This document shows, in pieces, positions 19,605 through 25,243 of a stretch of 28,078 bases of DNA. Location: IMG/VR virus record IMGVR_UViG_3300001450_007678, positions 29,963 to 58,040 of that record; one strand, 5' to 3'. Both the position numbers and the translations under genes were made by a program. How positions within the stretch are numbered: position 1 is the first letter of the stretch; each line of letters opens with the position of its first letter. The notes under the pieces are model-generated. The model was not told the DNA's origin. It was given only the letters and a program-made list of their open reading frames with translations, and did no database searches. Source of the stretch: a virus.

Positions 19605-19707
19605 TTTTTTTTCGATTATATTTTTTTTTACTTTGATGCACCATCGGTTTGGTAAGCTTTCTTGTTTCTTTCCAATCTATTTTTTTCCATTCAAACTTGT
19701 CGCTCAT
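19549..19707 (-). CDS. Small basic protein, 35-52 aa, end uncertain at an A9 tract
   Basis: The ATG at 19707 overlaps the stop of the dioxygenase gene (ATGA), the usual junction in this genome. The product begins MSDKFEWKKIDWKETRKL and continues TKPMVHQSKKKYNRKK. As read, the frame runs 56 bases into the next gene and stops at 19549. The tail beyond residue 34 is out of frame with that gene and ordinary for random sequence. If the A9 run near 19603-19611 held ten A, the protein would end after NRKKK with a TGA overlapping the next ATG, the same ATGA junction again. The first 34 residues are likely real; the extension is doubtful. Function unknown. Confidence 0.5.
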   Translation of the reverse strand: MSDKFEWKKIDWKETRKLTKPMVHQSKKKYNRKKNEFKRVKNTNYRSGEESC

Positions 19708-20171
19708 TTTTTTAAAAATAAAACTTGCACCAATCTTGAATTATTTTTATCACCAAAATTATTATACAAATTTCTCGAGTGTTTTTCGTGAGAATCAAAC
19801 ACAACTAGTCTGTTATATTTCATATAAATTCTTACAGACTTATCTTCATCTTTATCATACAACACTGTTCCTGCATTTGGAGGATAATACTTATTTAAAT
19901 ATACCAAGACTGTTTTATCCCCCATCATTTCATCTGTATGAATATAATTCGGCTCTATTTGTTTAAAAGGTGATTGACGAATAAAATTATATTTCACTGT
20001 ATAATCAGGAAACAGTAATAACACAAATTTCTCTACTTCATCATTTGCTCGTGATTGTATTCCTTTAAACAAATTATCACCATCTTCTACATCCACAAAA
20101 GGATTTTTTAATACATCTTGTACATACTCATCGGGATGTGCTAATATATCATCTAACACAAATAAAGTCAT
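19704..20171 (-). CDS. 2-oxoglutarate/Fe(II)-dependent dioxygenase (prolyl 4-hydroxylase-like), 155 aa
   Basis: The catalytic set of this fold is complete. The HxD pair is H78 and D80 in YIHTDEMMGDKTVLVYLN; the distal histidine is H131 in VVFDSHEKHSRNLY; and R146 in NSRLVQVLFLKK is placed to bind 2-oxoglutarate. Strands between them (GTVLYD, NRLVVFD) complete the double-stranded beta helix. At 155 residues it is a minimal domain, as often seen in phages. Substrates of such phage enzymes are mostly unknown; protein prolyl or other side chains, or nucleic acid, are possible. The start overlaps the GroES-like gene stop (ATGA), so the two are probably coupled. Confidence 0.83.
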   Translation of the reverse strand: MTLFVLDDILAHPDEYVQDVLKNPFVDVEDGDNLFKGIQSRANDEVEKFVLLLFPDYTVKYNFIRQSPFKQIEPNYIHTDEMMGDKTVLVYLNKYYPPNAGTVLYDKDEDKSVRIYMKYNRLVVFDSHEKHSRNLYNNFGDKNNSRLVQVLFLKK

Positions 20172-20731
20172 AATTTTATAGTTATTTGATGGTCATACAT
20201 TCTGTATAACTTCTCGTCTTCTACTCTAAACTCATATTCACTATCAGGAACAAAAGATACTTTGTCACCCGTCTTTAAACCTTGCAATTTTAAATAATTA
20301 TTTACATACACCATTTCTCCCATTAAAGGCTCTTTATTAGTGTTTTTAAAAATAACACTTTCTGTCTTTGGAATAGGTCTAACAAAACAATATCTACCGT
20401 AAGTTTTCCATTTATTATTTTGTTTGTATAAAAAAAACTGCTCCATGTCTACCAAAAAACAATCATCTTTTAAAAAACTTTTACCACTTTTTTGCCTTCC
20501 CCTCATATCGTAATAATACTTGAAAACATTATGGTGTACCAATAAAACATCTCCCTTTTTAATATCCCCTTTATAATTTAAAGGAATTTCAACTACTTCG
20601 GCCTCTCTATTGGAAAAACTAACATCTTCTTGAGAAGTGCTAATAATAATATCTTTACCCCCTATTTTTTTTGAGTTGTTATATCTCCTTTTATTAACAG
20701 GAGATACAATAAACTGTGTAGGAGACCTCAT
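20168..20731 (-). CDS. GroES/Hsp10-like protein, 187 aa (tentative)
   Basis: The pattern resembles a GroES beta-barrel with a long insertion. EAEVVEIPLNYKGDIKKGDV then LLVHHNVFKYYYD (residues 43-75) parallels GroES 'GxVVAVG...KVGDxVLF', and CFLVDMEQFFLYKQ (about 91-104) parallels the 'yliv.eddIlai' strand. A second barrel-like repeat (VRPIPK, then GEMVYVNNY, KTGDKVSFVPDSEYEFRVED) follows at 115-170. The N-terminus SPTQFIVSPVNKRRYNN would be the first strand. Phages such as T4 carry a GroES-like gp31 needed to fold the capsid protein, which would suit a gene near the capsid block. The match is by pattern only. It shares a base with the upstream stop (TAATG). Confidence 0.5.
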   Translation of the reverse strand: MRSPTQFIVSPVNKRRYNNSKKIGGKDIIISTSQEDVSFSNREAEVVEIPLNYKGDIKKGDVLLVHHNVFKYYYDMRGRQKSGKSFLKDDCFLVDMEQFFLYKQNNKWKTYGRYCFVRPIPKTESVIFKNTNKEPLMGEMVYVNNYLKLQGLKTGDKVSFVPDSEYEFRVEDEKLYRMYDHQITIKL

Positions 20732-22159: not shown

Positions 22160-22534
22160 TTATCTTTTTATTTTTTCTAATGAACGACCCCCAAAGTACG
22201 CTCCCACAACAGAAATCATAACGAGTTGCAAAAGGTCAACCCAAGAATTTTTAACTTCAAAATTTATAAACCCCGCGTCTATAAATATAAGAAGCACAGT
22301 AGATATTAATAAAAAAGCTAACGTTAAAGGCCTTATGTTTTTAGATAACCAACTATCAGAACTCATGTCAGCCTTCCATCTTTCAGTTACATTTTTTTGT
22401 AATTCAACTTCTGATTCTAATAACATTTTTTTCATAGCATTTCGTAATGCCATTTTTTCTTCTTTTGATGTAACTACATCATCAATAATAGTTGATGCGT
22501 CTCCAATTAATGATTTTATAAATCCTTTTATCAT
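22160..22534 (-). CDS. Holin (GTA-holin/3TM-like), 124 aa
   Basis: The N-terminal 60 residues are an amphipathic, charged helical domain (IKGFIKSLIGDAS, later RWKADMSSDSWLSKNIRPLT). Two clear membrane helices follow, about 69-90 (PLTLAFLLISTVLLIFIDAG) and 98-116 (WVDLLQLVMISVVGAYFGG), with a basic end KIKR. The 'D..S.sWLsKniRPl' approach to the first membrane helix is characteristic of the GTA-type phage holin family as I know it. Its start overlaps the endolysin stop (ATGA), a normal endolysin-holin pairing. Holins time the release or activation of the endolysin at the inner membrane. Confidence 0.82.
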   Translation of the reverse strand: MIKGFIKSLIGDASTIIDDVVTSKEEKMALRNAMKKMLLESEVELQKNVTERWKADMSSDSWLSKNIRPLTLAFLLISTVLLIFIDAGFINFEVKNSWVDLLQLVMISVVGAYFGGRSLEKIKR

Positions 22535-23010
22535 GCTTTTTTATATTTAGTTTTTCCATTAGAATCTTTATATGCTTCTAATAACTGACATCTATTTCCT
22601 TTAAGGTTGTATGAAATATGTATCCATGCGTAATCAAACTCATTTATCATTTGGTCAAAAGGAATATTGTTTTCTAACACATAATCCCATATAACTTTAT
22701 TATCAACCTTTCCCTTATTGTTTCTATATTTTAAATCTGCCGCTTGACCTTTGCAATGTTGACTTGTAGGCATATAAACACCGTCTTTTATTTTATGAGC
22801 ACCTCCTAAAGCTTTATTTAACTCTTCAGACCTAAAGCCTGAATTAATTCCCAACATTCCTATGCCATCTCTTATAGGTTGTAAAGTAAATTCACACAAT
22901 GATTTCATTTGCTCTATGTGATGAAACTCTGGAGAATTATCAATACCATGTCTCTTTGCTACATTTGATTTTAAAAACTCCGCCAAGAAAAAATTTTTAG
23001 ATAACTTCAT
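22531..23010 (-). CDS. Endolysin, peptidase M15 (D-Ala-D-Ala carboxypeptidase-like), 159 aa
   Basis: The M15 zinc site is complete: H85 and D92 in SQHCKGQAADLKY (residues 83-95) and H131 in WIHISY, with the usual helix-turn NSGFRSEELNKALGG (56-70) before it. The N-terminus KLSKNFFLAEFLKSNVAKRH with IEQMKSLCEFTLQPIRD is typical of phage M15A endolysins. There is no signal peptide, so export depends on the adjacent holin. It cuts peptide cross-links of peptidoglycan. It is preceded by a secreted thioredoxin-fold gene, three bases away, and overlaps the holin start. Confidence 0.9.
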   Translation of the reverse strand: MKLSKNFFLAEFLKSNVAKRHGIDNSPEFHHIEQMKSLCEFTLQPIRDGIGMLGINSGFRSEELNKALGGAHKIKDGVYMPTSQHCKGQAADLKYRNNKGKVDNKVIWDYVLENNIPFDQMINEFDYAWIHISYNLKGNRCQLLEAYKDSNGKTKYKKA

Positions 23011-23011
23011 T

Positions 23012-23371
23012 TTACATAAATTTCTTTAATACTAATTCTTCAACTTTCTTTTTAGCGTCTTTAATGCTTAATTTAAATGTTAAATCTGCTTCATATTTCT
23101 CTATTACCTCTTTGTTATAAAAAACAATAATAGTAGGAACGGAAAGTATTTTATATTTTGAAACAAGATTGGGATAATCTTCTATGTTAATTGTATAAGT
23201 CTTAATATCTTTAAATTCCGACAAATCAACCATATTATCTTTGTTCCAATCTGCATAAAATTCTATTACAACAATATCTTCTTTTAATATCGACCCCAAC
23301 TCATTTTCCTTAATAGATGTTTGTCCAAAAACTAAAGTTGTGATTAATAATAATAAAGATAAAAATTTCAT
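23012..23371 (-). CDS. Secreted thioredoxin-fold protein lacking the CxxC site, 119 aa
   Basis: Residues 1-17 are a Sec signal peptide ending in VFGQ, a common Bacteroidota cleavage context. The mature part has the thioredoxin order: strand VVIEFYADW (34-42), then where the active site should be the sequence W-N-K-D-N (42-46), so both catalytic cysteines are replaced by asparagine. A strand TYTINIEDYPNLVSKYKI follows, then the conserved cis-proline loop SVPT (77-80) and strand IIVFYNKEVIEKYE. It cannot do thiol exchange. A binding or chaperone role in the periplasm is inferred. Its ATG overlaps the upstream stop (ATGA) and it sits directly before the endolysin, suggesting a lysis or envelope task. 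Confidence 0.75.
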   Translation of the reverse strand: MKFLSLLLLITTLVFGQTSIKENELGSILKEDIVVIEFYADWNKDNMVDLSEFKDIKTYTINIEDYPNLVSKYKILSVPTIIVFYNKEVIEKYEADLTFKLSIKDAKKKVEELVLKKFM

Positions 23372-23655
23372 TTTTGTATTATTTCATACAATCGCTCATC
23401 CATTACATCTATCTTTTTTTCTATTGCATCTAATGTTTCTTTATTGGATAAAACGGTTTGTCTTATTAATTCATTTTTCATATTTATTTCTCCTGCACTT
23501 GGATAGCCGTCAAACTTTTCAACTTTAACTTCTATTGAGTTAACTTGACCGACTAAATTGTAATAAGTCCCCACTAGTCCTATTACCATTACAATAAAAC
23601 TTATTAAAAACTTTAAGTCAGTGCTTACTTTTGTATTGTTGCTTATTTGAGCCAT
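23368..23655 (-). CDS. One-pass membrane coiled-coil protein (spanin- or holin-associated type), 95 aa
   Basis: A single membrane helix lies at about residues 15-33 (LKFLISFIVMVIGLVGTYYN), with a polar N-terminus and a C-terminal helical domain of about 60 residues (VNSIEVKVEKFDG, then NKETLDAIEKKIDVMDERLY) that would lie in the periplasm. This is the form of an inner-membrane spanin or of small lysis accessory proteins. No lipobox partner is visible, but the neighbour upstream is secreted. It overlaps that neighbour by 13 bases. Role inferred from topology and place in the lysis cassette. Confidence 0.65.
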   Translation of the reverse strand: MAQISNNTKVSTDLKFLISFIVMVIGLVGTYYNLVGQVNSIEVKVEKFDGYPSAGEINMKNELIRQTVLSNKETLDAIEKKIDVMDERLYEIIQK

Positions 23656-24224
23656 TTTACTTTACCGTTTTGAATATAAATACTTTCAGGTTTTCTTATA
23701 ACCTGACCTTTTAAATTGTAAATTAAATTAGTCTCTTCTGAGTTTTTAATTATTTCTATAATTTGAGTGTTACACGGAAGTCCTGTGTCACAATCAATAT
23801 ATTCTTCTATATATATCCATTCGGTTTCAATTACTTCTATAAATAAAGTATCTAATATATCTTCATAAATATAAAGAGTATCTATTTCTTCTATTACTTG
23901 AATTTCAATAATAGTATCGGTTAAGTTAATATATTCTATCACGTCTACATACACTGTATCGCACTCTACAACATCAATAGTGCAATCAATAATAGTTGTA
24001 GGTGTAGTTTCTTGTTCATCTGTTGCATCTACACAGTCTTCCCATCCATCATTAAGCCACGTTCCTGGAACACACCCCTCAGGTGAGTATTGTGTCCAAT
24101 TAGATTCATCATCTCCACAATAAAAACCTCCTGACTCTGCACAAGCCACGCAGTTATTATTATAATCTTGAGACAACACAATTCCGCTTAATAAAATAAA
24201 TAATAATAATATGTATTTTTTCAT
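23643..24224 (-). CDS. Secreted Cys-rich protein with T9SS sorting-tail-like C-terminus, 193 aa
   Basis: Residues 1-19 form a signal peptide (MKKYILLLFILLSGIVLS). The mature N-terminus is Cys-rich: C25, C28, C36, C51 and C64 in a PSI/knottin-like spacing (CVACAESGGFYC, EGCVPGTW, EDCVDATDE). Residues 80-150 are acidic and alternate hydrophobic and polar residues (DTLYIYEDILDTLFIEVIE), suggesting extended beta structure. The last 27 residues, with LIYNLKGQVIRKPE followed by SIYIQNGKVKWLK, match the 'YnlkGqvv..p..giYi.nGK' form of type IX secretion C-terminal tails in Bacteroidota. Outer-surface delivery is therefore plausible but unproven. Two bases separate it from the beta-barrel gene. Confidence 0.7.
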   Translation of the reverse strand: MKKYILLLFILLSGIVLSQDYNNNCVACAESGGFYCGDDESNWTQYSPEGCVPGTWLNDGWEDCVDATDEQETTPTTIIDCTIDVVECDTVYVDVIEYINLTDTIIEIQVIEEIDTLYIYEDILDTLFIEVIETEWIYIEEYIDCDTGLPCNTQIIEIIKNSEETNLIYNLKGQVIRKPESIYIQNGKVKWLK

Positions 24225-24226
24225 AC

Positions 24227-25243
24227 TTAAAAGAATAAATAGTTAAACCCAACCTTTAATTCATATACAGGCTTCATCCAATACCTTTGGTGTGTTCCTT
24301 CTACAAAGATACCTAAATTCTTTGTAACTCGTGAACCAAACACAACTCCTGCGTCCCATTCTGCCCAATCACTGTTCTCGAGTCCATACTCAAAAGAGTA
24401 ATTATCAAACCCATAATGCAAAGGTAGTAAATTATACCATATATGAATCCATAGTTTTGGTGACCATTTATAGTACGAAACACCTAAAACAGCACTTATT
24501 TCGTTTTGAGTGCCTAACTTATCTAATTCTTGTTCATTGAAAGATGCGACTGCATCTCCAAAATAATGCTTATAAAACTCATCATTTGATGTAGCTATTA
24601 GCTTTTCATTACTAAACCAATGCCACCCCCCATTTACAAATTGCCTGCTATATCCAAAGTCTGCAGCCAACTCGACAAAAGTAGTTTCCCCGGGTGTCCA
24701 AAAATCCTCAATAGGATTAACTCCATATACAGGATGATTACGGAAACATAATCCGGCAGTAAAATCCCACGCACCTTTTGTAACTCTAAATCGACTATCA
24801 AAAGAAGTATATTCTAAATTTACTCTTTGATTGTCTTTGTATTGTAATTTATTAACTGTTTTATTTCCAAGATAACGTAACCAAAAATTTGCATTATTAA
24901 ATTTTTCACCACGATTCCGTATAAAAGAATAATTAAGAAGATACTCCCAACCATTAGCATTACCAACAGTAACGTTATCTGAAACAGTTCGCTCAGTACC
25001 GTAGTACCACGTTTTAACTTTGTACTCATAATCAAATCTAGCAATTTTTCGAATACCTATTGTTAAATTATAGTCATATTCGTTAATTTGTGTTACATCC
25101 TCATAACCCCTATCTATAGCAATGTAATTTTCTCTTTCCACCATAGAAGTACCCATAGTAAAAGAAGTATATACAGTAGAATATTTAAAGAATTGTCCAA
25201 ATGAAAGTAACGGAAATAATAATAATAAAAATAATGCTTTCAT
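24227..25243 (-). CDS. Secreted outer-membrane beta-barrel-type protein, 338 aa
   Basis: Residues 1-17 are a clear Sec signal peptide (MKALFLLLLFPLLSFGQ). The mature chain is rich in aromatic residues and alternates polar and hydrophobic positions in many stretches (YDYNLTIGIRKIARFDYEYK, WEYLLNYSFIRN, AWDFTAGLCFRNH, WDAGVVFGSRVTKNLGIFVE), as outer-membrane barrels do. It ends in KVGFNYLFF; a terminal aromatic residue is the BAM recognition signature. It has no membrane helix beyond the signal. A phage-made outer-membrane protein could block further phage adsorption, or weaken the outer membrane at lysis. Its start overlaps the upstream 42-residue ORF (ATGA). Confidence 0.72.
   Translation of the reverse strand: MKALFLLLLFPLLSFGQFFKYSTVYTSFTMGTSMVERENYIAIDRGYEDVTQINEYDYNLTIGIRKIARFDYEYKVKTWYYGTERTVSDNVTVGNANGWEYLLNYSFIRNRGEKFNNANFWLRYLGNKTVNKLQYKDNQRVNLEYTSFDSRFRVTKGAWDFTAGLCFRNHPVYGVNPIEDFWTPGETTFVELAADFGYSRQFVNGGWHWFSNEKLIATSNDEFYKHYFGDAVASFNEQELDKLGTQNEISAVLGVSYYKWSPKLWIHIWYNLLPLHYGFDNYSFEYGLENSDWAEWDAGVVFGSRVTKNLGIFVEGTHQRYWMKPVYELKVGFNYLFF

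Follow-up and report, generated by a model that had tools for sequence, protein, structure and literature searches.

A barrel, coiled-coil and thioredoxin-fold gene module of uncultured marine Bacteroidota phages as a candidate device for outer-membrane disruption at lysis

Introduction

Two-component spanins such as lambda Rz/Rz1 (PMC6139136) combine an inner-membrane protein with one N-terminal transmembrane segment (TM) followed by a periplasmic coiled coil, the i-spanin, with an outer-membrane lipoprotein that carries a lipobox, the o-spanin; the two genes are overlapping, nested or adjacent, and lie near those for the endolysin and holin. In 2018, Kongari et al. reported that about 13% of the genomes that they analysed were without a spanin, listed phages of Croceibacter and Bacteroides among them, and considered that an outer-membrane protein could serve as o-spanin (PMC6139136). 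A later survey found only unimolecular spanins in Bacteroidetes phages, in which one protein has an N-terminal lipobox as well as a C-terminal TM (PMC12596118). It is acknowledged to be an open question how phages without recognisable spanins, such as those of Croceibacter and Bacteroides, breach the outer membrane (PMC6139136).

Here we analysed a 28,078-nucleotide stretch of phage DNA (hereafter the window; positions 29963-58040 of the 58,040-base uncultured virus record IMGVR_UViG_3300001450_007678 from IMG/VR), which contains a gene module beside an endolysin and a holin. Its core, as established by sequence or prediction, consists of an outer-membrane barrel (BARREL), an inner-membrane protein with one TM and a coiled coil (CC) and a secreted thioredoxin fold that is redox-dead (TRX). 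We put at roughly one half the probability that the module serves a Bacteroidota phage at lysis as a non-lipoprotein, trans-envelope device for disruption of the outer membrane. If so, it might constitute a new class of lysis machine in Bacteroidota phages, and the three core genes are a defined, expressible set bearing on spanin-less lysis. The module may also include phage-encoded cargo for the host type IX secretion system (T9SS), of which no description was found in the papers searched.

Results and discussion

Cassette layout and comparison with spanins

An earlier note on this DNA, made from the sequence alone, had described six packed genes at 22160-25243. All six open reading frames (ORFs) were confirmed; they lie on the minus strand, neighbours overlapping or standing apart by 1-13 nt, and are listed here with their main features:

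24227..25243, minus strand: BARREL, 338-aa predicted outer-membrane beta-barrel with a Q-rule signal peptide (see below)
23643..24224, minus strand: CYS, 193-aa secreted protein with an LDLa-like domain, an acidic, DT-rich stalk that varies in length and a short tail at the C-terminus
23961..24152, minus strand: LDLa-like domain of CYS, approximately residues 25-88, with a conserved calcium-site-like motif, NDGWxDCxDxxDE
23646..23732, minus strand: short C-terminal tail of CYS, YNLxGQxIRxPxxIYIxNGKxK, similar to the end of type IX sorting domains
23368..23655, minus strand: CC, 95-aa predicted one-pass inner-membrane protein with an N-terminal TM and then a heptad coiled coil, of i-spanin-like anatomy
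23012..23371, minus strand: TRX, 119-aa secreted thioredoxin-fold protein without redox cysteines
23234..23248, minus strand: W-N-K-D-N of TRX, where thioredoxins have the WCGPC active site
22531..23010, minus strand: M15 peptidase endolysin (PF08291; phrog_894)
22160..22534, minus strand: holin (GTA_holin_3TM; PF11351; phrog_3427)

Read 5' to 3', the barrel and CYS genes are separated by a 2-nt gap, CYS overlaps CC by 13 nt and CC overlaps TRX by 4 nt; a 1-nt gap then precedes the M15 gene, which overlaps the holin gene by 4 nt. The endolysin and holin assignments made in the earlier note were upheld by matches to curated Pfam and PHROG families, at 44.3 bits (cut-off 23.2) and 4e-32 for the M15 product, whose PHROG family is an endolysin, and at 25.5 bits (cut-off 24.8) and 6e-30 for the holin.

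The module resembles two-component spanins in having a one-TM inner-membrane coiled-coil protein, an overlapping partner gene and a position near the endolysin and holin. CC displays the N-terminal TM and subsequent periplasmic coiled coil that characterise i-spanins, its orientation being that predicted from the sequence, and the CC/TRX pair has the gene arrangement of a two-component spanin. Unlike such spanins, the module lacks an o-spanin lipoprotein, the partner being a secreted thioredoxin fold and a barrel usually being present as a third gene. Two pattern screens of the 58-kb record detected no credible ORF with an o-spanin lipobox, which extends the absence noted earlier beyond the cassette, and a classic spanin elsewhere in the record was rejected on the same grounds. 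With unimolecular spanins the module shares its proposed role and host phylum, but no protein combining a lipobox at the N-terminus with a TM at the C-terminus was found. The module falls outside the definition of a spanin; it may act as one does. Between the barrel and CYS genes, about six loci encode a protein of 63 aa whose start is lipobox-like (L035:9059-9250), a possible o-spanin-like lipoprotein of those phages.

The CC and TRX proteins

The single TM of CC spans approximately residues 10-30, and a heptad pattern was detected at a shuffle P <= 0.05 in 76% of 179 homologues. The genes for CC and TRX overlap or lie no more than 10 nt apart in 173 of 178 pairs, a 4-nt overlap being the commonest arrangement. 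At one locus, a tandem pair of CC genes (L302:122-442 and 426-710) stands ahead of TRX.

TRX matches the thioredoxin family PF00085 at 30 bits (cut-off 23.5) and keeps the proline of the cis-Pro loop. At the active site, CxxC is absent from all homologues and is replaced by W-N-x-x-N, with W42, N43 and N46 invariant in alignment A4. The proposal of a redox-dead thioredoxin in the earlier note is thus supported both by the fold match and by the missing cysteines.

The barrel and the export signals

The AlphaFold2 model of the barrel protein (mean predicted local distance difference test score 75.8) contains about 12 strands, and its matches in the PDB by Foldseek were the outer-membrane barrels NanC, the COG4313 channel and FapF, so that the beta-barrel recognised in the earlier note holds as a prediction. 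Like these three proteins, it is a predicted outer-membrane barrel with helical inserts; unlike them, it shows no sequence similarity to any of the three, and the query-normalised TM-scores are about 0.3-0.4. No family match was obtained in Pfam, PHROG or NCBIfam and no solved relative was found by sequence, while at least 80 relatives are present in IMG/VR. No sign of a host origin was obtained: the barrel matched none of 399 genomes from the order to which a Crocinitomicaceae metagenome-assembled genome (MAG) belongs, and none of the genome contigs scanned, in searches that had no positive control.

Between the window and the distant phages G007, G010 and G012, the barrel is 66-70% identical and the terminase 21-42%. 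In the same comparisons, 41-54% of the 4-fold degenerate sites are identical for the barrel and 37-47% for the terminase, and we take those of the barrel to be near saturation for AT-rich genes. The similarity of the barrel would therefore reflect old, strong purifying selection, and recent horizontal transfer was rejected as the cause of its high identity. In one relative (L076:7983-9028) a stop interrupts the barrel frame.

In Bacteroidota, Gln directly follows the signal peptidase I site, the so-called Q-rule (PMC5837995), and the predicted signal peptides of the barrel, CYS and TRX all stop directly before a Gln. With one fixed rule and predicted cleavage, the Q-rule was obeyed by 67% of barrel, 95% of CYS and 83% of TRX homologues, versus 2% of other ORFs and 9% of CC homologues. 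These signal peptides fit the Bacteroidota host group assumed in the earlier note.

Conservation of the module and its lysis neighbours

The module was searched for in related phages, as had been suggested in the earlier note, using four IMG/VR seeds (barrel, CYS, TRX and CC). Well over 100 distinct phage loci in IMG/VR share it, so the arrangement is far beyond chance, and its genes occur in hundreds of uncultured phage contigs. A total of 197 distinct loci carrying TRX were collected; as these were deduplicated by TRX sequence and not by lineage, the counts do not represent independent events. CC is encoded directly upstream of TRX in 178 of the 194 loci with room, and the barrel upstream of TRX in 130 of 161. 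CYS is present in 76 of 80 barrel-seeded loci, and the barrel in 76 of 77 CYS-seeded ones. The TRX- and CC-seeded scans extended the set to loci where the barrel, CC and TRX genes directly abut without CYS, and the minimal core is therefore barrel-CC-TRX. Among INPHARED records, neither the barrel nor CYS had any match, and CC variants gave at most one weak match at chance level.

Immediately behind TRX, 56 of about 180 loci carry the M15 endolysin gene, and D32, a second endolysin-like family that matches the phrog_33083 endolysin, or a holin takes this place in eight more. M15, D32 or an amidase is encoded no further than about 3 kb away in 59 of the 131 loci with room. In other phage types, CC-TRX follows M15-holin (L342, L351) or lies between an amidase-like gene and a holin (L354). 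A PAP2 phosphatase (PF01569), possibly a lipid phosphatase, recurs downstream of TRX in many loci (for example L137:3061-3615).

CYS and the exchangeable cargo

The earlier note had described CYS as a Cys-rich protein with a signal peptide; its secretion stands, and the description is now corrected to a protein containing an LDL-receptor class A-like (LDLa-like) domain, which is probably calcium-binding. In Foldseek searches the top matches were nearly all LDLa modules (target-normalised TM-score up to 0.66; E at best 0.2), and Pfam Ldl_recept_a matched 25 of 47 relatives, mostly weakly (best 4e-4). The domain has a calcium-site-like motif in common with LDL-receptor class A domains and a tentative fold match to them, but CYS of the window falls below the Pfam cut-off (15.7 versus 24.1 bits) and has Asn in place of the CDG cysteine of the motif. 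No papers on LDLa proteins in phages were found with the terms used.

The tail motif occurs in 126 of 130 CYS proteins versus 20 of 1783 other ORFs. It resembles the short tail of T9SS type A cargo (TIGR04183 / PF18962), with a weak profile match to true T9SS sorting domains, but CYS fails the family models: NCBIfam, a genome search and profile-profile tests all gave no TIGR04183 domain, and T9SS membership of CYS is not supported. We therefore claim only a motif-level resemblance. A protein of the Crocinitomicaceae MAG (L178) also has the LDLa-like motif, and its C-terminus reads like a T9SS domain. Export of CYS towards the cell surface is plausible from these features.

CYS is an optional passenger of the module, replaceable by other secreted proteins. 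In phages with the barrel and without CYS, the gene after TRX often (18 loci) encodes another secreted protein, with a YGDG-type motif. Among the YGDG-type cargo proteins tested, four are T9SS type A cargo with a full TIGR04183 domain above the cut-off of 23 bits (L318, L322, L270 and L336, at 46.7, 44.4, 40.3 and 38.9 bits respectively). Other cargo proteins of these phages end in a short CYS-like tail, and the CYS tail matches the tails of other cargo types in profile comparison (81% probability, E 1.2e-5). The proteins with T9SS domains are 737-1022 aa in length and encoded near barrel-CC-TRX (L318:1524-3818, L322:4412-6622, L270:2546-5611 and L336:2867-5086).

Proposed mechanism and alternative explanations

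We propose that CC, as an i-spanin-like anchor, and TRX would form a periplasmic bridge docked on the barrel, which would stand in for the o-spanin lipoprotein. Peptidoglycan would hold this bridge apart until the holin releases the M15 endolysin; collapse of the coil would then draw both membranes together and break the outer membrane, as Rz/Rz1 do. CYS would be an exported accessory that its C-terminal tail directs towards the cell surface, with calcium binding or surface remodelling as possible roles there. This proposal draws on the near inseparability of CC and TRX, the lysis-gene neighbours, the type II-like one-TM anatomy of CC, the lack of a lipobox, the Q-rule signal peptides, the old, strong constraint on the barrel and the observations of Kongari et al. 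(PMC6139136). The fuller version, in which a barrel-anchored, thioredoxin-bridged coiled coil replaces lipoprotein spanins and also carries an exchangeable exported payload (LDLa, YGDG-domain or T9SS-tailed) acting on the surface when the phage is released, is put forward tentatively, as a possibility.

The earlier note had envisaged an envelope-disruption system in which a barrel, a surface-targeted protein and a redox-dead thioredoxin replace or supplement spanins. The conserved exported module, often placed by an endolysin and holin, remains from that scheme, as do the thioredoxin and the barrel; the surface-targeted protein has proved optional and replaceable. CC, which the note had omitted from its mechanism, now appears from its sequence to be the best spanin-like candidate, paired with TRX and with the barrel as a frequent third partner.

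Several observations weigh against a role in lysis. The periplasmic part of CC, at about 60 residues, is short to span the periplasm alone; the lipobox screen was a pattern search only; several records, possibly fragments, have CC-TRX but no detectable barrel; and more than half of the loci with room have no recognised endolysin within about 3 kb. The earlier note had also expected that relatives lysing normally without the module would count against its reading, and such relatives were in part found. By portal, terminase and capsid gene matches the window phage lies near flavobacterial podoviruses, its portal being 76% identical to that of the environmental genome ctfjg026, 50% to that of Maribacter phage Panino and 44% to that of Flavobacterium phage elemo. 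These three share portal and terminase with it, and all four genes (barrel, CYS, CC and TRX) are absent from the 21-22 kb read around their endolysin. Since elemo and Panino, which are from cultured hosts, still lyse, lysis does not depend on the module across the whole clade. Different one-TM proteins are encoded around the endolysin of these relatives. Near the endolysin in module-less relatives are proteins of 181-207 aa with one N-terminal TM and a DT-rich stretch resembling the CYS stalk (L083:12326-12871, L081:11391-12014 and L082:8701-9303), each a possible alternative envelope protein.

The loci without a recognised endolysin nearby and the cultured relatives that manage without the module would also fit surface remodelling or superinfection exclusion, where the barrel and cargo alter the host surface to keep out another phage or to prevent progeny from adsorbing to debris, while CC and TRX aid export or folding and the lysis genes are mere late-region neighbours. 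Although the cargo slot is filled by exported proteins whose domains are of surface type, including four with true T9SS sorting domains, we consider this explanation unlikely, if the most durable of the alternatives: the long loops of the barrel are conserved to the same degree as its strands, not variable as a surface arms race predicts, and CC-TRX persists without barrel and cargo, still beside lysis genes in some phages.

The cargo could instead be the purpose of the module, with CC, TRX and barrel forming a trans-envelope path that carries or anchors tailed proteins, alone or with the host T9SS. Parts predicted for the inner membrane, periplasm and outer membrane would suit such an export or display apparatus, as would the short tail shared by unrelated cargo types and the four full T9SS domains. 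However, barrel-CC-TRX often occurs without recognised cargo and in the searches made the barrel did not resemble any T9SS component, which makes this account improbable. That the genes are morons, unrelated accessory genes brought together by chance in the late region, is very improbable, the linkage counts having largely refuted it: in some phages SNase, PAP2 and other genes interrupt the module, but order and strand are constant in well over 100 loci from four independent seeds, CC and TRX overlap in most, and the barrel protein is conserved while its silent sites appear near saturation. Disruption of the outer membrane at lysis thus remains the explanation that we prefer.

Other features of the record

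The window holin (22160-22534) is unusually conserved, with 67-72% identity to L166:9358-9753 and L169:18715-19089, even where encoded on the opposite strand; the terminase is only 21-41% identical in phages sharing it. The record also encodes a GroEL-type chaperonin (PF00118; L162:698-2317), and a gene at 20168-20731 of the window has a weak Cpn10 match. Just upstream of a small terminase-like gene, the ORF at 19704-20171 weakly matches the 2OG-Fe(II) oxygenase superfamily.

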